Shown: in pieces, positions 1,530 to 13,348 of the stretch
How positions within the stretch are numbered: the first letter of the stretch is position 1
Layout: each line of letters starts with the position of its first letter
From: a virus
IMG/VR virus record: IMGVR_UViG_3300030102_001246
Coordinates: 1-20,289 of that record
Direction: 5' to 3' (one strand)
Length of the DNA: 20,289 bases
The notes under the pieces: generated by a model
What the model saw: the letters and a program-made list of their open reading frames with translations, nothing else
Database searches by the model: none
Told to the model about the DNA's origin: nothing
Program-made: the position numbers and the translations under genes

Positions 1530-1591
1530 CCCGCGAACCCGTTACCCTTCCCGGCGGGGTCAACAGCCGGGTGTTTCCTCCCTCTAACTTG

Positions 1592-1619
1592 CCCCCGGCC
1601 TAGTGCTGGGGGTTTTTTT
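1592..1619 (+). terminator. Rho-independent terminator of upstream operon
   Basis: CCCCCGGC (1592-1599) pairs with GCTGGGGG (1605-1612) through 8 pairs including one G-U, with a 5-nt loop, and is followed by seven T (1613-1619). A weaker hairpin (CCCGGC 1550-1555 / GCCGGG 1566-1571) lies just upstream. Confidence 0.9.
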
Positions 1620-1681
1620 GTGGGCCTGTCATGTTTATTCGGGATCACCGGTTGTAAACATTGGGGAAACCGGGCCGGATG

Positions 1682-2791: not shown

Positions 2792-4517
2792 ACCCCGCAA
2801 ACGCGTCCTAGTCCCCCCTGACCCGGCGACCTTGGACCAGCCACGGAAACGTGGGCGACCAAAAAAAGACCCGAACCAGCCCAAAGCTGAATATGCAATC
2901 AGCGACAGGGAGCGGGCACGACGTTCCGTCCAGATGCGTCTTCGCAACGCAAAGAAGTCGGCAGCTTCCCAGCAACGAAAAGCCGAATACAGGAAAAAGA
3001 AAGTCAAAAAACTAACCGAATCTGCAGATAAAATAGAGAAGGCGTTACAGGGTGAAAAAACTAGAGTCATCGATCAAGGCGATCTTACAAATCTTCCGGA
3101 CTCAGTGGGCGATCTTGTTGATGGTAGCCCAGTTATCTTCAAGCCAAATCCGGGACCACAAGAAGAATTTCTCAGCGCGTCTGAGCAAGATGTACTCTAC
3201 GGTGGTGCAGCCGGGGGCGGTAAATCTTTCGCTCTCTTGGCCGATCCTCTGCGCTACTGTCACAACTCTAATCATCGTGGGCTTCTTCTTAGGCGTACTC
3301 TCGACGAGCTAACAGAACTCATCGACAAGTCGAAGCAGTTATACCCGAAAGCATTTCCGGGAGCTACCTTCCGTGAGTCCAAGTCCACATGGGTTTTTCC
3401 GTCAGGGGCAACCATGTGGTTCACCTATCTCGACAGAGATAAAGACGTAACCCGTTTCCAAGGACAGGCGTTCAACTGGATCGGCATAGATGAAATTACT
3501 CAGTACCCTTCGTCCTATGTCTGGGATTACCTGCGTTCTCGCCTTCGTTCTACTGATCCTGAACTCCAGCAACAGTTGTGCATGCGCTGCACAGCCAACC
3601 CCGGAGGAGTGGGTGGTTGGTGGGTCAAGAAGATGTACATTGACCACCGCGAACCAAACAAGCCTTTTGGTGCCTACGACTTAGAAACAGGAAAAACATT
3701 TGTGTGGCCTGACGGTCACGAAAAAGCAGGTCAGCCGCTGTTCTATCGCAAATTTGTCCCTGCACGGTTGACTGATAATCCCTACCTGATGGCAGACGGC
3801 CAATACGAGGCCATGCTCAGGTCGCTCCCGGATGTCGAGCGTAGACGACTCCTAGAAGGGGATTGGGACGTGGCGGAGGGAGCGGCCTTCCCCGAGTTTT
3901 CGAGGTCTCGACATGTGGTCGAACATTTTGAACTTCCAACCAACTGGCCGCGCATACGAGCGGCGGACTACGGCTACGCAAGTCCATCGTGCGTTTTATG
4001 GGGGGCTATTGACTGGGATAATAATATCTGGGTTTATCGTGAGTTGTACGCAAAGCACTTGACAGCCGAGCAACTAGCTGATAAAATACTAGAAGCAGAA
4101 GAGTTAGACCCACTTCCACACTACAATGTTCTAGACTCTTCTTGCTGGAACAAGACAGGCTTCGGCCCGTCCATTGCAGAGACAATGATGCGGGCTGGTG
4201 TTAGGTGGACTCCCTCGGACCGCAACCGTCTACAAGGTAAAATGGAAGTTCACAGGCGGCTTGCTGACGACCCCTACACCGACGAACCTCGTCTTAGAAT
4301 ATTCTCCACGTGCAAGCACACCATAGCGCAGCTATCGGGCATACCTCTCTCCAAAACCAACAGTGAAGATGTAGACACGAAGGCAGAGGATCATGCGTAC
4401 GATGCGTTGCGCTACATGGTGATGACGCGCACGTCGGGGTATCAGGCTATACACAAAACACTTCAAGGCATCAAGGATCAGGCGTTTAGGCCGATGGATG
4501 CTACGTTTGGATACTGA
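2784..4517 (+). CDS. terL: Terminase large subunit (packaging ATPase-nuclease)
   Basis: 577 aa from ATG 2784. It powers DNA translocation into the prohead and cuts the concatemer. Seen in order: a very basic N-terminal extension (residues 1-95) with an AT-hook-like RKRGRPKKDP (21-30) and a Lys-rich coil; the ATPase domain with Walker A GGAAGGGKS (140-148), Walker B IGIDE (233-237) and the coupling motif CTANPGG (269-275); then an RNase H-like nuclease with acidic residues D395 (ADYGYASP), D451 (NVLDSS) and D540 (EDHAYDALRY). All catalytic positions are present. It overlaps terS by 8 nt and the next gene by 1 nt (TGATG). The N-terminal extension is longer than usual and may help hold DNA. Confidence 0.97.
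   Translation: MGKPRKRVLVPPDPATLDQPRKRGRPKKDPNQPKAEYAISDRERARRSVQMRLRNAKKSAASQQRKAEYRKKKVKKLTESADKIEKALQGEKTRVIDQGDLTNLPDSVGDLVDGSPVIFKPNPGPQEEFLSASEQDVLYGGAAGGGKSFALLADPLRYCHNSNHRGLLLRRTLDELTELIDKSKQLYPKAFPGATFRESKSTWVFPSGATMWFTYLDRDKDVTRFQGQAFNWIGIDEITQYPSSYVWDYLRSRLRSTDPELQQQLCMRCTANPGGVGGWWVKKMYIDHREPNKPFGAYDLETGKTFVWPDGHEKAGQPLFYRKFVPARLTDNPYLMADGQYEAMLRSLPDVERRRLLEGDWDVAEGAAFPEFSRSRHVVEHFELPTNWPRIRAADYGYASPSCVLWGAIDWDNNIWVYRELYAKHLTAEQLADKILEAEELDPLPHYNVLDSSCWNKTGFGPSIAETMMRAGVRWTPSDRNRLQGKMEVHRRLADDPYTDEPRLRIFSTCKHTIAQLSGIPLSKTNSEDVDTKAEDHAYDALRYMVMTRTSGYQAIHKTLQGIKDQAFRPMDATFGY
4059..4087 (+). promoter_or_regulatory. Possible internal promoter inside terL
   Basis: TTGACA (4059-4064), 17-bp spacer, TAAAAT (4082-4087; 5 of 6), with an extended -10 TG one base before. 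It is the closest match to consensus in the window, but it lies in coding sequence, so it may be chance. It would feed the recombinase-like and portal genes. Confidence 0.4.
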
Positions 4518-6349
4518 TGTCGGATATAACTGCAAAGATCAAAGATCAGACTCTTACCATTCGTGAGGCTATCGAAGGTGCGGGTAAGCCTTTGACCACC
4601 TCTAAGGGTGCGCCAAATAAGTTTGCTAAGAATATCGAAGCAGCAGGTTTGTCTCTGGATGATCCGTGGTCAAGTATAAAAGATGAATCTTTTTTACGTA
4701 AGCTGAACGAAATTGGAACAGAAGGAAACTTCGTTTCACTTCTTACTGTAGAGAATGAACTTCGTCGTCTCTCTAGCGTCGGAGATATTCCGTTTCCTTA
4801 TTCTGATGTGTTTAGCCCCAAAGGGAAAGCGCGTGGACTAAAAGACGCTGAAGGTAATTTTTTAGAAAAGGCGTCACAAGCACGTCTAACCAAGAAGTTT
4901 AAAGGTGTTCCCGAGGCCCAGAAGTCTCTCACTGCCCTAACAGAGGGCATTTCTGTTATCAAAGACCCGCGAACTCGTGCTGCCGTTGCCTTCAATGCTC
5001 TTGTGCCTCTTCGTCCCGGTGAAGTCGCAGGGATTAAAGTGGATGACATCGACTTTGAAACTGGTTCTTTCAAGGAATCATATCGTCGTGTAAACAAGAT
5101 TCGTAATGAACTTGATCTTCCGGAAGTTGCACTAGAGATTATACGCGATGCTGCTGACAAAGCGAAAGCAGAGGGACGTGAATATATATTCCTCGACAAA
5201 GATGTCAAAGACCCTAAAAAAGCGACGGGCAACTTTGTAAATAAAATGACCACGGGCATGAAAATGCCGGGTGGTGTTATTGAAAGGTTCAAGCCTTTTG
5301 AAAAGGCTATGGGTCGTGCGGTTGCTGGCGCATCAGACATTCGTAAAATCATCCCCTCTATTATCGCAATGGAGTTAGGATACACCACAGAAGCTAGTGC
5401 GATTATGGGTCACGCATCCTTCGATGAAACCATCGACGGCATGAAAGGCATAACTCGTAAGCACTACGTTTCTCAAATTATTACAGACGAAGGCACTACA
5501 GCAAAGCAAGCTCTTCGTGCCTTACAAAACATGTACGGCGAAGTTCTTGGCTTGTCAACCTTAAATGAGATTCCGGCATCTATGGGCGTAGATGCAGCAG
5601 GACTCACCCAAGAAGGCGCACCACGTCTGGCAGTAATTCCTAAAGGCTCTGAGATTGTTGGGACACAAGTTCAGGGCACACTAAACGACGCGGACCTTGA
5701 CTTGATTGAGGATGTTCGTGAAGCACGGAGTCAACAGCTAAAATTAGAGGCAACGACTGCAGAAAAACAGCGTCTTGAGATGGAAGCCCAGATGGGTGAA
5801 CTTGACGAAGAGGCTGAAAGGGTCCGAGCGCAAAGGCGACTGCGTCGTCAAGAGATTTACAAAGAAGAGAAAGCTGCAGTCACACCCGAGTCCCCCGAAC
5901 CTAAGTCTATGACTGACTTCAATCCTGATTTACAGGATCAACTCAACAAAGGCGGTTTCGACTTTGATGCGTTTCTCAAGGGGACGACTAAAGCAGTCGG
6001 GGGTGCATTTGCTGGGTTGGCGGCTTACGAACTTTTCCGTGATCCTTTAGGCACGGGAGCGGCAATGGCGAAAGAGATTGCTATAGAGGGTGCTGGTTTA
6101 GCAGCACGTTTACCTGCCGGACCGGCTGCTGCCCTCCCGATGATCCTTGAACCTACGGCCACAGCCGGACCAGAGCTTTCAGAAATCGAACCCGGTTTAG
6201 GATACACAGAAGACGAACTTCGTCAGATACGAGGCACCGAACCGCTGCCCGATGCTGACGCCGGGTTCGTAAACAGAAACGATGCTGCACGGAACCGTGA
6301 GGAAGCCACCGATGCAGCCGCTCAACCTATGGGCTTCCTTTCACCATAA
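4517..6349 (+). CDS. Tyrosine-recombinase-like protein with extra C-terminal region
   Basis: 610 aa, start codon overlapping the terL stop (TGATG). Seen: an N-terminal helical region (1-130); a recombinase-like catalytic domain (about 130-320) with LVPLRPGEVAGIKVDDIDFE (Arg166), SDIRK (Arg276), MGHAS (His299) and KHYV (Tyr317); a coiled coil rich in Glu/Arg (about 390-455); and an Ala/Gly-rich hydrophobic stretch (about 485-550). Known: tyrosine recombinases use Arg, His/Lys-x-x-Arg, His and Tyr. Here the first residue of the H-x-x-R box is Ser273, and Tyr is 18 residues after His299 rather than the usual ~9. So it is probably related to integrases, with altered or lost activity. Its site between terminase and portal, and the large extra C-terminus, are odd for an integrase and suggest a head-related or packaging-linked role. 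Confidence 0.7.
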   Translation: MSDITAKIKDQTLTIREAIEGAGKPLTTSKGAPNKFAKNIEAAGLSLDDPWSSIKDESFLRKLNEIGTEGNFVSLLTVENELRRLSSVGDIPFPYSDVFSPKGKARGLKDAEGNFLEKASQARLTKKFKGVPEAQKSLTALTEGISVIKDPRTRAAVAFNALVPLRPGEVAGIKVDDIDFETGSFKESYRRVNKIRNELDLPEVALEIIRDAADKAKAEGREYIFLDKDVKDPKKATGNFVNKMTTGMKMPGGVIERFKPFEKAMGRAVAGASDIRKIIPSIIAMELGYTTEASAIMGHASFDETIDGMKGITRKHYVSQIITDEGTTAKQALRALQNMYGEVLGLSTLNEIPASMGVDAAGLTQEGAPRLAVIPKGSEIVGTQVQGTLNDADLDLIEDVREARSQQLKLEATTAEKQRLEMEAQMGELDEEAERVRAQRRLRRQEIYKEEKAAVTPESPEPKSMTDFNPDLQDQLNKGGFDFDAFLKGTTKAVGGAFAGLAAYELFRDPLGTGAAMAKEIAIEGAGLAARLPAGPAAALPMILEPTATAGPELSEIEPGLGYTEDELRQIRGTEPLPDADAGFVNRNDAARNREEATDAAAQPMGFLSP

Positions 6350-8741: not shown

Positions 8742-11397
8742 TCGCATAAATCTTATTGAAGATGACGATACTGAAGACACATCTTTTCGGTTCACGCCCA
8801 AGCGTGTGGTCAGTGCGGGTGAATACGGTAGTTCGTTTATCAACTTTTACAACACCACGCTCGGACTGCCATCTCTCGGACAAGAAACTGGCATCGAAGT
8901 AAGAGAGGATATCACAGAGTTGGCTGAACCGGGTCGTTCGCCAAAAAGGGATGAGCCGAGTGATGATCCGAGTGAAACTGGCGTAGACCCGTTTGATGTT
9001 ATAAACACACAGCCTATAGTATTTTACAACGATAACACCTCATCAACCAATGTAAATTTCGACAGTTATTCTGATTACCTATCTTCTGCACAAGATGGGA
9101 AGTTCAAGGATCGCGTGGGTCTCGTACAAAATGTTTTAGAACCCACTGTCACTGGCAACTTTAGAGAAATTGATCTCGGTGCAGGACTCAGTTCAGAGGT
9201 GAAGGCCACTGCTCAAGATATAGGTGCTGAAATCAAAGAAGCACCCTCTCGGGCCGAGCGTTTGATCACGGGTAATTTGGACGAAAGAGACAGCAAGTCT
9301 CTTGCCGCTGGTCTTGCGTCAGCTATGGCGGGACCGGTTGGTGGCGTAGCAGGCACCTTTATAGGGGGAACAGAAGTAAGGAACGCTTTTGGTAACAACA
9401 GTTTCCGTCCAGCGGGGCCTTTAGGTTTTGTAGCAGACCTCGTTCACGCGAAACAATACGATGCTAGGGCAAAAAACAGGGCTGTCCGTAGTGCGTACGC
9501 TCAAGGAGACATGGCGGGCACGGATTTTGGCCGGATGAATTTTAGCAAGGTCGATGTCGGTTTTGAAATGACTATCGGCAATTTAGGTATAGTTCGCGCT
9601 GCCGGTGAGTATCATTACAGCGGCAACATGCAGGGGCTGTCCCATCAAACTGTACGAGCTTTGGAGGCAATTAGCAAAGGATACGACCCCACCCGAGGTC
9701 GCTACAATTTTCGTGATCCGAGTAAAAGTCTGACGGTAGAAGAGGCGGGTGGTCTACAGGTATCCGGCAACCCGATGGATGGTTTCTTTAGGGCGAACGG
9801 CACTGTGTACAATCCCAAATTCATAGGCCATATCGGGGGTGCTTCAGGGGCGTTCCCAAGCAGAGCAATGATTCTAGGCGCAGCCAAAACTCATGGTGTA
9901 TCAGAGGATCAGTTTCGGAGTGCCCTTTCCCAAGCTAGAAGTGGAAATATCACGCTGGGGGATGCGGTTAGAAGAATCAAGTCTCAGGAAGACGCGATAC
10001 GCAAAGCAGAGGCAGATCGTAAAGAAAAAGCAGAGGCAGATCGCATAAGAGATGCTAATCTTAAAGCCCAACAACGTGCAGCAGCTCGGGCGGCTGAAAA
10101 AACTGCGGCTCAAATTGCAGAAGAAGCGAGGGAGCGGGCTAGAAAGCAGCAGCAGCAGCAGGACGATGGGGGCACACCATCTTACTCTCCACCTACTGAG
10201 TATTCTATCAGTACAGGCTTCGAGGATCGCACAGACTTTGGTGGATCAAGCGGACCATTTGCAGAGGGTGGTCGTGTTGGCCTTGCCATGGGTGGCGCAC
10301 CCGGCATGGCATCTGGTTTCGTAGATCGCCCACCCGAGCAAGTGCCTGAAGATCAGACTGTTGCGGATAACCGGGCAACCCAACTCCCCGAAGGCGCGTT
10401 CGTAATCAACGCCGCAGCCGTTGAGTTCGCGGGAAGCAATGATATCAAGGATATGTTGCTCAAGGCTCACAAAGAATCTTTACGACGCGGATTATCGGTT
10501 GACAAACAAGGAAATGGTGCTAAACTAATAGACGTGGCGATTTCAAGCGGTGAAGTTGTTGTCGCCCCACACCTCGCCAAAATTATCGGCTATGATCGCC
10601 TAAATAAGATCAACAATCGCGGCAAAGCCGAGACTCGCGAACGTATCGAAGAAAACGGGCAGCCCGAAGGTATGCAGGCTCGGTCTGGTGGTTTCATAAA
10701 TAGGTACAATGGTGGTGACGTGTCCACACGTTACGCCGGACCGTTGTCAGCAGTTGAGTTGATGAAGTCCGGCCTCAACGTCTCATCCCCTGTTTCTCAA
10801 GGATTTATCGAACAAGAACCGTTTGATACCGGCCCGGTTCCGACTGGGTTAGATGATACGGCACACGGATATCGCATAGGTGATGTGATGGCTGCTATTC
10901 AGGCTGTTGAAACCAAAGGCTACGAAAACAAGAACGGCGGCTACATATTCACCAAGTCTGATAAAAAAGGAAAAAGGTCTTCGGCCTTCGGTCCCTATCA
11001 AATAACCGGAGAAACAGTAGCGGACTTGCTGAAAAGAAACAGCAACGTAGCTAGACAAATTAAATTTGATCCGGGATTTGGCGATTACATCAATGCCTTT
11101 ATTGCACAGGGCGTTGATGCTGTAAACATACGCAAGACAGGTAAAAAGTACGTCGGTCCAGAAGATAACAGAACCCCTGTAAAAATAAGCAACGCTGTAA
11201 AGAAACTATACGGTCCCCTCGGTGTGGGTGAAATACCCAGAGAACTTCATGATAAGTATTACCCCATGCTTGCCGAGTATGTCGTGAAACAAAAAGCTTC
11301 AGATGCCGGTTCTTTTGACGAGTGGATCAAGAGCTACGGAAACAATACCGAGGCTTATCTGAAAAAAGTAAAAACAGAACTAGATAAATTATCATAA
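8734..11397 (+). CDS. Large virion-type protein with C-terminal transglycosylase-like domain
   Basis: 887 aa. Seen in order: an acidic N-terminus (MADRINLIEDDD); a hydrophobic Gly/Ala segment (about 190-212, LAAGLASAMAGPVGGVAGTF); a charged coiled coil (about 412-476) containing an 8-residue repeat (KAEADR) and five Gln; a linker with FAEGGRVGLAMGG, a phrase common in marine phage virion proteins; a domain starting LPEGAFVINAAAVEF (about 550-645); and a C-terminal region (about 715-885) with the lytic-transglycosylase-like pattern AVETKGYE (candidate catalytic Glu726) followed by SSAFGPYQIT (751-757, like the G-x-x-Q-I motif). Inference: an internal virion or ejection protein whose end opens peptidoglycan during DNA entry. 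The domain call is by motif only. It follows portal and overlaps the 74-aa gene by 8 nt. Confidence 0.72.
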   Translation: MADRINLIEDDDTEDTSFRFTPKRVVSAGEYGSSFINFYNTTLGLPSLGQETGIEVREDITELAEPGRSPKRDEPSDDPSETGVDPFDVINTQPIVFYNDNTSSTNVNFDSYSDYLSSAQDGKFKDRVGLVQNVLEPTVTGNFREIDLGAGLSSEVKATAQDIGAEIKEAPSRAERLITGNLDERDSKSLAAGLASAMAGPVGGVAGTFIGGTEVRNAFGNNSFRPAGPLGFVADLVHAKQYDARAKNRAVRSAYAQGDMAGTDFGRMNFSKVDVGFEMTIGNLGIVRAAGEYHYSGNMQGLSHQTVRALEAISKGYDPTRGRYNFRDPSKSLTVEEAGGLQVSGNPMDGFFRANGTVYNPKFIGHIGGASGAFPSRAMILGAAKTHGVSEDQFRSALSQARSGNITLGDAVRRIKSQEDAIRKAEADRKEKAEADRIRDANLKAQQRAAARAAEKTAAQIAEEARERARKQQQQQDDGGTPSYSPPTEYSISTGFEDRTDFGGSSGPFAEGGRVGLAMGGAPGMASGFVDRPPEQVPEDQTVADNRATQLPEGAFVINAAAVEFAGSNDIKDMLLKAHKESLRRGLSVDKQGNGAKLIDVAISSGEVVVAPHLAKIIGYDRLNKINNRGKAETRERIEENGQPEGMQARSGGFINRYNGGDVSTRYAGPLSAVELMKSGLNVSSPVSQGFIEQEPFDTGPVPTGLDDTAHGYRIGDVMAAIQAVETKGYENKNGGYIFTKSDKKGKRSSAFGPYQITGETVADLLKRNSNVARQIKFDPGFGDYINAFIAQGVDAVNIRKTGKKYVGPEDNRTPVKISNAVKKLYGPLGVGEIPRELHDKYYPMLAEYVVKQKASDAGSFDEWIKSYGNNTEAYLKKVKTELDKLS
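10003..10043 (+). repeat. Coding tandem repeat in coiled coil
   Basis: The 17-mer AAAGCAGAGGCAGATCG occurs at 10003-10019 and 10027-10043 (period 24 nt, 8 codons) and encodes KAEADR twice. A recent internal duplication of a coil heptad-like unit is likely; a CAG x5 run (10147-10161) lies nearby. Confidence 0.8.
10499..10526 (+). promoter_or_regulatory. Weak internal promoter-like site
   Basis: TTGACA (10499-10504), 16-bp spacer, TAAACT (10521-10526). The word CTAAACTAAT (10520-10529) is identical to that at the head-operon promoter (2152-2161). It is inside coding sequence and about 960 bp before the scaffold gene, so it could boost scaffold and coat expression, or be chance. Confidence 0.3.
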
Positions 11398-11405
11398 AGA
11401 ATTCG

Positions 11406-11471
11406 CTGGCTACCCGCAAGTTCGCGGCCCCAGCACAACCGGAGCGGCTACCCACAGCCAAGTGGCCCCGC
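11406..11471 (+). promoter_or_regulatory. Two tandem covarying RNA hairpins before scaffold gene
   Basis: Hairpin 1 (11406-11433): CTGG/CCAG outer stem, asymmetric internal loop CTAC/CC, CCGC/GCGG inner stem, 6-nt loop AAGTTC. Hairpin 2 (11444-11471): GCGG/CCGC, CTAC/CC, CCAC/GTGG, loop AGCCAA. The architecture is identical, and stem bases that differ between copies keep pairing (C-G to G-C, T-A to C-G, G-C to A-T). They lie 5 nt before the scaffold ribosome site (GAGGT 11476-11480), so a role in translation or mRNA stability is likely. Confidence 0.6.
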
Positions 11472-11487
11472 GAGTGAGGTAAATTAA

Positions 11488-12378
11488 ATGGCAAAAGCAA
11501 GAGGCCACCGTGCCAACAAAGCTAACGATTCATTCGGAACAGTAAACAATGAATCGCTGTATCGTGGAAAGTACCGTGATGAAGTCTACAAAGATGAAGA
11601 CGACAATGAAGCGGGAGAAACTGTAGAAGCACAAGAAGCGGACCCCGAAGAGGCTACTCCGCAGGAAAGCACCAGTTTCGTCGAAGCAAAAAAAGAAGAG
11701 ACCCACGATTACAAAAAACGGTATGACGACTTGAAGCGTCATTATGACGAAAAGGTCGGAGAGTTCAAGAGTGAAATCGAAAATCTCCGCAAGACCATGA
11801 CCCAACACGCACAAGAAATGCCGCGTGGGGTTGCACCACCAAAGACTGCAGAAGAACTGGAAGAGTTCAAGGAACGCTATCCAGATGTGTTCGAGGTAGT
11901 GCAAACGGTTTCAAGTCTGCAAACTGAATCTCAGGTTGCAAAACTCCGAGAAGAACTCGGTTCTATCAAGGAGCGGGAACAGGAGCTAGAAAAGCAGAAA
12001 GCCTTCGAGGAACTGCTTCGTCTCCAGCCCGACTTCAACGAGATCAAGGCGGATGAAAAATTCCTTTCTTGGCTCGAAGAGCAACCAACATCAATCTCAG
12101 ATGGTATCTACAAAAACAACAAGGATGCCCGCTGGGCGGCACGGGTCATAGACCTCTATAAGGCCGATGTTGGCCTAACAAAGAAGAAAGCCAAATCTCC
12201 ATCTGCTGCAGAAGCTGTCACTAAAACCCCTACGCGGGAAGTGAAGACAGAAGCAACAGATGGGAAGAAGATTTGGAAAGCTTCTGAAATCGGCAAAATG
12301 AAGCCGTGGCAGTTTGAAAAGGCGGAAGCCGAATTAGACGCTGCCCGTGCAGAAGGCCGAATCGACTACAACTCTTAA
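11488..12378 (+). CDS. Scaffolding protein
   Basis: 296 aa from ATG 11488, with GAGGT at 11476-11480 (7 nt). Scaffolds guide coat assembly into proheads and leave before or during packaging. Seen: a very acidic N-terminal part (about 30-75, KDEDDNEAGETVEAQEAD), a coiled coil (about 72-110 with DDLKRHYDEKVGEFKSEI, and about 145-185 with KLREELGSIKEREQEL), and a basic C-terminus that would contact coat, including KKAKSPS and the terminal GKMKPWQFEKAEAE. No enzymatic motif. This composition, length and position just before the major capsid gene are typical of phage scaffolds. It is preceded by two tandem hairpins that may control its dosage. Confidence 0.85.
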   Translation: MAKARGHRANKANDSFGTVNNESLYRGKYRDEVYKDEDDNEAGETVEAQEADPEEATPQESTSFVEAKKEETHDYKKRYDDLKRHYDEKVGEFKSEIENLRKTMTQHAQEMPRGVAPPKTAEELEEFKERYPDVFEVVQTVSSLQTESQVAKLREELGSIKEREQELEKQKAFEELLRLQPDFNEIKADEKFLSWLEEQPTSISDGIYKNNKDARWAARVIDLYKADVGLTKKKAKSPSAAEAVTKTPTREVKTEATDGKKIWKASEIGKMKPWQFEKAEAELDAARAEGRIDYNS

Positions 12379-12409: not shown

Positions 12410-13348
12410 ATGGCTTTCAATAGCGCGTCAGGTTACAACAACCTGCCATCCGGTAACTTTACACCGGAAATTTTTAGCCAAAAAGTTCTCAAATTCTTCC
12501 GTCGCGCTTCGGTTGCAGAAGACATCACGAACACCGACTACGCTGGCGAAATTGAGAATTTTGGCGATACTGTCCGCATCATCAAGGAACCAACAATTAC
12601 GGTCTCCTCGTATGCTCGTGGATCAGTAGTAAACCCGCAAGACCTTGCTGACGATCAGACAACTATGGTTGTTGATCAGGCAAACGCTTTTGCATTTAAG
12701 ATTGACGACATCGAAGAGCGTCAGTCTCACGTTAACTTCGAGGCTCTGGCCACCTCTTCAGGTGCGTACTCCTTGAAGCGTAAGTACGATGCCAACGTCC
12801 TGCAAGCAATGGCAGACGGCGCAGGCAACACCGGTACCTCTGTTGGTACGGCTGCTAGCCCGATCGATATCACTGGTAGTGGTAACGAGGACGCTGCTGT
12901 CAACCTGATAATGACAATGGCTCGTATTCTCGACGATCAGACTGTTCCAGAAGAGAACCGCTGGTTTGTAGCACCTCCGATCTTCTACGAGAACGCGTTC
13001 AAGGCTGGTGCCAAGTTCGCAGAAGTTCAGGTAACTGGTGACGGCACTTCGCCGCTCCGCAACGGTCTTGTCATGGCTGGCAATATTGCCGGTTTCAACT
13101 GTTACAAGTCCACGGCCCTGAACAACTCGGGAACTGACGTTGTGACCATCAACTCGCAAGACACTACGAACGATTTCGTTGTTCTTGCTGGACATATGTC
13201 CTCAACTGCAACTGCTTCGCACATTGCGAAGACTGAGGTTGTACGTTCGACTGAAACCTTTAGTGACATCGTTCGTGGTCTCCACGTGTTTGGCCGTAAG
13301 GTCATTCGCCCGGAAGCTATCGTTCAGGGTGTCATTAAGACTGACTAA
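12410..13348 (+). CDS. Major capsid protein
   Basis: 312 aa, start ATG 12410 with the best ribosome site of the window (GGAAGGA, about 12396-12402), as expected for the most abundant protein. Seen: N-terminal MAFNSASGYNNLPSGNFTPEIFSQKVLKFF with an E-loop-like region, AFKIDDIEERQSHVNFE, then YSLKRKYDANVLQAMA, NRWFVAPPIFYENAF and the C-terminal end VIRPEAIVQGV. This profile matches HK97-fold coats of the P22-coat-like group in marine podovirus-like phages; the exact family was not searched. It ends with tandem stops (TAA TAG, 13346-13351). The next gene has its own strong ribosome site. It follows the scaffold and lies in the expected order. Confidence 0.92.
   Translation: MAFNSASGYNNLPSGNFTPEIFSQKVLKFFRRASVAEDITNTDYAGEIENFGDTVRIIKEPTITVSSYARGSVVNPQDLADDQTTMVVDQANAFAFKIDDIEERQSHVNFEALATSSGAYSLKRKYDANVLQAMADGAGNTGTSVGTAASPIDITGSGNEDAAVNLIMTMARILDDQTVPEENRWFVAPPIFYENAFKAGAKFAEVQVTGDGTSPLRNGLVMAGNIAGFNCYKSTALNNSGTDVVTINSQDTTNDFVVLAGHMSSTATASHIAKTEVVRSTETFSDIVRGLHVFGRKVIRPEAIVQGVIKTD

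Follow-up and report, generated by a model that had tools for sequence, protein, structure and literature searches.

Does the leader of a phage capsid gene carry a selected RNA structure, and if so, what would that structure do there? The question arises at an IMG/VR virus contig of 20,289 bases (the window, by which we mean the whole stretch of DNA analysed), in which two small hairpins stand in tandem directly before the putative scaffold gene. Its relatives in culture are HMO-2011-type phages that infect Pelagibacter, SAR116, and Roseobacter, together with phages of Rhizobium/Sinorhizobium. Phages of the HMO-2011 type are widespread in the ocean and dominant there (PMC9038755). On how they balance their capsid proteins we found nothing in the literature; among open-licence papers none was found that describes such an RNA in these phages, and the main comparative paper on them leaves promoters, intergenic features, and features of the coat leader unmentioned. 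The element described here is a real plus-strand RNA motif that marks the leaders of capsid genes, and it would offer a concrete RNA site for capsid-protein balance in abundant ocean phages.

The Locus and Its Two Hairpins

The genes of the window are ordered as terminase large subunit, integrase-like open reading frame (ORF), portal/head-tail connector, an 887-amino-acid ORF, the scaffold-position gene, coat, and smaller genes. The 887-amino-acid ORF ends at 11397, and both hairpins sit between it and the scaffold-position gene (Table 1). We infer the scaffold identity of the latter from its position, its membership of phrog_13678 (a group with no named function), and the layout of an AlphaFold model in which long coiled helices and a C-terminal helix-turn-helix are predicted (pTM 0.43, with a low-confidence N terminus). 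A PDB fold search and a sequence search with this model matched nothing informative. No conserved RNA-binding motif was found in the scaffold proteins across the groups compared; a basic N terminus was considered as a general RNA-binding motif and rejected, since only the window's group and a few neighbouring groups have it.

Two other features of the window deserve mention. A gap between ORFs contains a match to the suhB/mmgR small RNA (RF00519), a host-type small RNA on a phage contig. The integrase-like ORF, which has a tyrosine recombinase domain, lies between terminase and portal, an unusual location for an integrase; the R, GH, and Y motif residues are apparently there, and D replaces the first H.

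Table 1. Features of the window; bit scores of the hairpins are from R1, the covariance model used for copy searches
Feature	Position	Strand	Description or basis
suhB/mmgR small RNA (RF00519)	1537-1628	+	Rfam match, 48.2 bits, above gathering score
Integrase-like ORF	4517-6349		610 amino acids
Hairpin 1	11405-11434	+	GCTGG-CTAC-CCGC.AAGTTC.GCGG-CC-CCAGC; outer stem GCTGG/CCAGC, internal loop CTAC/CC, inner stem CCGC/GCGG, apical loop AAGTTC; 35.4 bits
Linker joining hairpins	11435-11443	+	ACAACCGGA; moderate conservation among close relatives (alignment)
Hairpin 2	11443-11472 (stems 11444-11471)	+	GCGG-CTAC-CCAC.AGCCAA.GTGG-CC-CCGC; outer stem GCGG/CCGC, internal loop CTAC/CC, inner stem CCAC/GTGG, apical loop AGCCAA; 34.3 bits
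Ribosome binding site (TGAGGT) and spacer	11475-11487	+	Sequence
Scaffold-position gene, phrog_13678	11488-12378	+	Gene order, predicted fold layout
Major capsid (coat) gene, phrog_267	12410-13348	+

A sequence-only reading of the window had described two tandem hairpins of shared architecture with an identical CTAC/CC internal loop, and both sequence and coordinates bear this out, each hairpin folding singly as described. The 4-bp outer stem that it gave to both copies is found in copy 2; in copy 1, G11405-C11434 adds a fifth pair, and five pairs are also present in many relatives. All three compensated pairs that it had counted between the copies are there (outer C-G/G-C and U-A/C-G, inner G-C/A-U). 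The window has two matches to the pattern GGCTACCCRCN6GYGGCCCC and no others, and 100 shuffles have none. For the window taken by itself, folding energy falls short of significance (z = 0.25 for both hairpins together, -1.8 and -1.2 for the hairpins singly) and was therefore left out of the evidence, which is decisive at the comparative level. Hairpin 2 ends 16 nt before the scaffold ATG; it is followed by GAGTGAGGTAAATTAAATG, without the U run that follows the GC stem of an intrinsic terminator.

Conservation and Covariation among Close Relatives

Close relatives were represented by 80 loci fetched by coat similarity, 542 kb in total. A structure scanner returned 157 plus-strand matches in these 542 kb, 146 of them in the zone directly before scaffold; from shuffles, about 17 would be expected overall. 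Contigs without a scanner hairpin are either cut ahead of the leader or carry divergent copies (L010, L011, L060, L067, L081, L078) that were regained by a looser search. The sequence-only reading had proposed a covariance-model search for copies before scaffold or coat genes; in the same 542 kb, this search placed 151 copies before scaffold, with one stray match (E = 0.71). Both hairpins are kept in all 43 non-redundant complete leaders, and their apical loops vary. Homologues lacking the structure or breaking its pairing, which had been named in advance as evidence against it, are absent among these 43, except for a shortened copy-2 inner stem in L060, L067, and L081.

In 28 diverse hand-picked hairpins, nine of ten pairs have changed on both sides. 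Because this set had been chosen by a scanner that demands pairing, the count was redone on the 43 leaders aligned by position only. Without any pairing requirement, 90.6% of cells pair, compared with 25-41% when partners are slid, and there are 96 double-change cells against 31.5 in column shuffles, with double changes in 12 of 18 pairs. RNAalifold predicts both hairpins de novo from the close-relative leaders. When pairs are mapped on a tree of coat proteins from 73 loci, an outer pair (G-C/A-U) requires 17 changes and an inner pair (C-G/U-A) 13, with zero unpaired states at either position; recombination between leader and coat can inflate these switch counts, but not the absence of unpaired intermediates. 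The selected RNA structure that had been proposed from the window is thus strongly supported by covariation across relatives.

Topology across Phage Groups

Beside the window's group, another four were assembled, each of 80 loci. The HTVC103P group carries tandem copies as in the window, the HTVC033P group one or two copies before scaffold, and the CRP-2 group a single copy before scaffold; locus L462 has three. Leaders of the HMO-2011 group form one hairpin with two loops, the inner loop being rotated by 180 degrees (GG-CTAC-stem-CC-stem...stem-CTAC-stem-CC-CC). This rotated-nested form parses in 36 of 43 non-redundant HMO leaders and in 0 of 2,150 shuffles; its best example is L288 (TGTTGG-CTAC-CTATG-CC-CCT.AATA.AGG-CTAC-CATAG-CC-CCAACG). 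The MAFFT alignment of HMO leaders misregisters the middle stem, which RNAalifold hence misses, and a parser with shuffles was used instead. At the corresponding place, G-AYAC-C/G-MC-C hairpins occur in Vibrio phage CHOED and in two phages of Aeromonas, a form that is provisional because it comes from three sequences.

The internal-loop consensus is 5'-G-CUAC-C / G-CC-C-3', with the variants CCAC/CA, CAAC/CM, and AYAC/MC, and apical loops range from 2 to about 50 nt across groups, GNRA tetraloops among them. Tandem, single, and rotated-nested use, together with the variable apical loops, indicates that what is kept is the internal loop with its closing pairs, and neither the terminal loop nor the order of the strands. 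That one loop is used rotated and nested further suggests that a compact RNA module is the recognised part. At L093, L097, L107, and other HTVC033P-type loci, a further hairpin (TGTG-CCAC-CTAGTCA...TGACTAG-CC-CACA) lies upstream of the main one and apparently overlaps the coding end of the upstream gene.

The Loop in Coat Leaders

Scaffold and coat are only about 22-45 nt apart in the window's group, without a separate coat leader. The HMO and CRP-2 groups have about 200 nt between the two genes, and this gap carries the same loop pair. Among CRP-2-type coat leaders, the pair parses in 23 of 23 non-redundant sequences (0 of 115 shuffles) as AAAGA-ACTAC-CTC...TAGG-CC-CAGC...GCTG-ACTAC-CCTA...GAG-CC-TCTTT or covarying versions of it, with double changes at six pairs and 93% of cells pairing. 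Under a strict rule, at least the outer loop (TTAC/CC or CAAC/CC) is present in 26 of 44 HMO-type coat leaders, compared with 2 of 880 shuffles; Sinorhizobium phage phiM6 and L288 provide clear examples. Scaffold and coat leaders alike are thus marked by this loop. Its position differs: about 51-67 nt (95 nt in phiM6) separate the end of the coat-leader pair from the start codon, and the pair does not adjoin the ribosome binding site.

Two additional features were seen in coat leaders. Those of the HMO-group loci L088 (2755-2994) and L087 (2738-3000) open with a promoter-like TTGACA..TATAAC, which suggests that coat has its own promoter in this group. In L092 (2930-2990) and its homologues, which are CRP-2-type, a second possible hairpin (GGATATG...CATATC) lies downstream of the loop pair and upstream of the ribosome binding site of coat.

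Specificity

In whole or near-whole phage genomes, R1 matches essentially only the pre-scaffold leader. The exception is HTVC115P, in which an extra copy, GGAG-ATAC-CCAT..ATGG-CA-CTCC, was observed at 24554-24584 (L438 1555-1585, minus strand), about 16 nt before the giant gene gp40. Searches of 289 alphaproteobacterial genomes found no convincing host copy: weak matches occur in six genomes, about the number that the threshold predicts, and are mostly inside ORFs, and the sole strong match is a phage contig in a Pelagibacter single-cell assembly. A scan of IMG/VR with the bare DNA pattern, using no protein information, yielded 71 new loci. This same coat gene lies about 1 kb downstream in 58 of them; six contigs end before the coat position, and seven are unrelated chance or repeat matches. 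One pattern match considered as a further copy, in L490, proved to be an unrelated repeat.

Strand, Spacing, and Upstream Boundary

The selected molecule can be identified from tolerated mismatches in the nested stems of HMO-type leaders, the one group in which this strand test is informative, since tandem groups do not discriminate strands. Complete structures form in 30 of 45 leaders when G-U is allowed, and in 12 of 45 when A-C is allowed, the same number as with Watson-Crick pairs alone; G-U pairs are required in 18 of the 30, and A-C instead rescues none. This tolerance of G-U but not A-C indicates that the plus-strand RNA is under selection.

The distance from the end of the last hairpin to the start codon is 10-23 nt in nearly all leaders of the five groups, and within each tandem or single-hairpin group it is nearly constant, mostly to within 2-3 nt either way. 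Of 162 leader pairs that are more than 90% identical, 146 have upstream DNA that is less than 40% identical. The conserved block starts at hairpin 1, which indicates that the element belongs to, and serves, the downstream genes. At 11398-11406 in the window and at homologous sites, the mosaic boundary is sharp, and the genes upstream of hairpin 1 are almost wholly different between phages with leaders of more than 90% identity.

Proposed Function and Alternatives

The explanation that we favour, and to which we give an even chance, is that the element is a translational operator, bound by a phage assembly protein, that coordinates the synthesis of scaffold and coat. It would act in cis as an RNA within the 5' leader of the scaffold(-coat) message, with the modular asymmetric internal loop between two short stems as its working part. 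A phage protein made late in infection, the first candidate being free coat or free scaffold, would recognise this loop and, as hairpin 2 abuts the ribosome binding site, would compete with the 30S subunit, lowering scaffold translation. Coat translation would also be lowered, either because coat is downstream on the same message or via its own leader, and the supply of both proteins would be matched to assembly.

The signature of a site at which a trans-acting factor would bind and control translation is present: the offset from the ribosome binding site is fixed, the modular loop is used in either orientation, and it recurs on two messages that are needed together. Two features expected of an autogenous operator are found here: a conserved structure abutting the ribosome binding site, and the same site on other messages of the putative regulon (the coat leaders of the CRP-2 and HMO groups). 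The feedback by coat or scaffold binding suggested by the sequence-only reading is consistent with the fixed start-codon distance and with the same loop in separate coat leaders. Against the operator are the single pre-scaffold copy in some groups (CRP-2-type), the extra copy of HTVC115P, which precedes a gene other than scaffold, and the scaffold proteins' lack of an RNA-binding motif conserved across groups; in coat leaders, the loop pair is so far from the ribosome binding site that simple occlusion would not act in the same way. More tentatively, and at somewhat less than an even chance, one assembly protein may read invertible loop modules in scaffold, coat, and occasionally other virion-gene leaders throughout the phage, so that procapsid assembly sets scaffold and coat translation. 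Such a capsid-gene regulon, if true, would operate in one of the ocean's most abundant phage groups.

The main rival, which we consider unlikely, is an mRNA stability or processing element: a scaffold-coat message would be cut at the hairpins, or its processed 5' end shielded by them, and more of it would be present late in infection, as with the RNase III hairpins of T7. An intergenic location in a cluster transcribed one way, a conserved block that begins at hairpin 1, recurrence at separate coat leaders, and up to three copies (in L462) would all suit such an element. RNase III sites, however, typically have about 20 pairs; the stems here are short and interrupted (8-10 pairs per hairpin in the window), and the tandem form lacks a continuous duplex of about 20 pairs or an equivalent, nested forms being longer. 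Strict conservation of the asymmetric loop and a fixed start-codon distance would be needless for stability alone, and matches in host genomes are at chance level or on a phage contig. That same scarcity makes it improbable that the loop, although it recurs in phages of several alphaproteobacterial hosts, is bound by an RNase or RNA-binding protein of the host, which the phage would exploit or sense: the 289 genomes contain a few weak matches in chance number, and in phages of unrelated hosts the loop keeps to capsid genes.

A protein-free switch, in which loop 2 (GCCA) would pair with the scaffold start (AUGGC) and hide the start codon until opened, is very improbable. It is prompted by GCCA in or near loop 2 together with an ATGGC start in 64 of 67 leaders of the window's group, and by UCCAU against AUGGA in HTVC033P; yet L060, L067, and L081 combine ATGGC with a UUAAUU loop, L149, L157, and L161 combine it with GUGA, GUAA, or GUAG loops, and there is no such match in the H103, HMO, and CRP-2 groups. 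A pseudoknot between loop 2 and the start codon was accordingly rejected as a general function, fitting the window's group and failing in others. We attach marginally less credence still to an element that acts as DNA, either an inverted repeat bound by a repressor or a boundary of recombination. The sharp mosaic boundary at the 5' edge would agree with this, but tolerance of G-U and not A-C in nested stems, variable apical loops and spacing, rotated-nested topology, and fixed start-codon distance all point to RNA. Chance or GC-rich low-complexity hairpins, for which the nonsignificant folding energy of the window might speak, are contradicted by every comparative test, and this explanation is refuted.

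Comparison with Known Systems

The sequence-only reading knew of no named RNA family with this form. In Rfam 15, no family reaches its gathering score at this site in the window or in 12 related loci; and we know of no RNA family that is a loop module with rotated-nested use in the capsid leaders of double-stranded DNA phages. There are precedents for the kind, namely small structured RNAs that resemble operators and lie in phage leaders. The Mu-gpT downstream element and other phage-gene RNAs in Rfam are structured RNAs near capsid genes, as here, and differ in that the present element has no Rfam 15 match. C-loops occur in ribosomal RNA and in the protein-bound thrS operator. They may offer a lead at the level of description. 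This RNA 3D motif has an asymmetric, C-rich internal loop with integral closing pairs (PMC3854523), features that the element would share.

Phage translational operators include the coat hairpin of R17/MS2 and the RegA, gp32, and gp43 operators of T4. The element resembles them as a small structured RNA beside the ribosome binding site of a phage gene, with protein-bound repression here as a proposal. It differs in what is conserved, an asymmetric internal loop that is used singly, in tandem, or rotated and nested, in the scaffold and coat leaders of a double-stranded DNA tailed phage. The rotated-nested loop module could be useful to structural biology, and as an orthogonal part for translation control.

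A close parallel in function would be phage P22, in which free scaffolding protein (gene 8) limits its own synthesis post-transcriptionally, matching it to assembly. Coat proteins of the present phages are P22-type (that of HMO-2011 is annotated PF11651). Only 13 nt separate P22 genes 1 and 8, without a comparable leader; a homologous leader was considered for the gene 8 control site and rejected, as this gap leaves no room and the element is absent, and we make no claim that the control sites are homologous. In P22, the question of how scaffold that is not assembled restrains its own synthesis is decades old, and the phages described here would provide a second system, with defined candidate sites, in which to address it.
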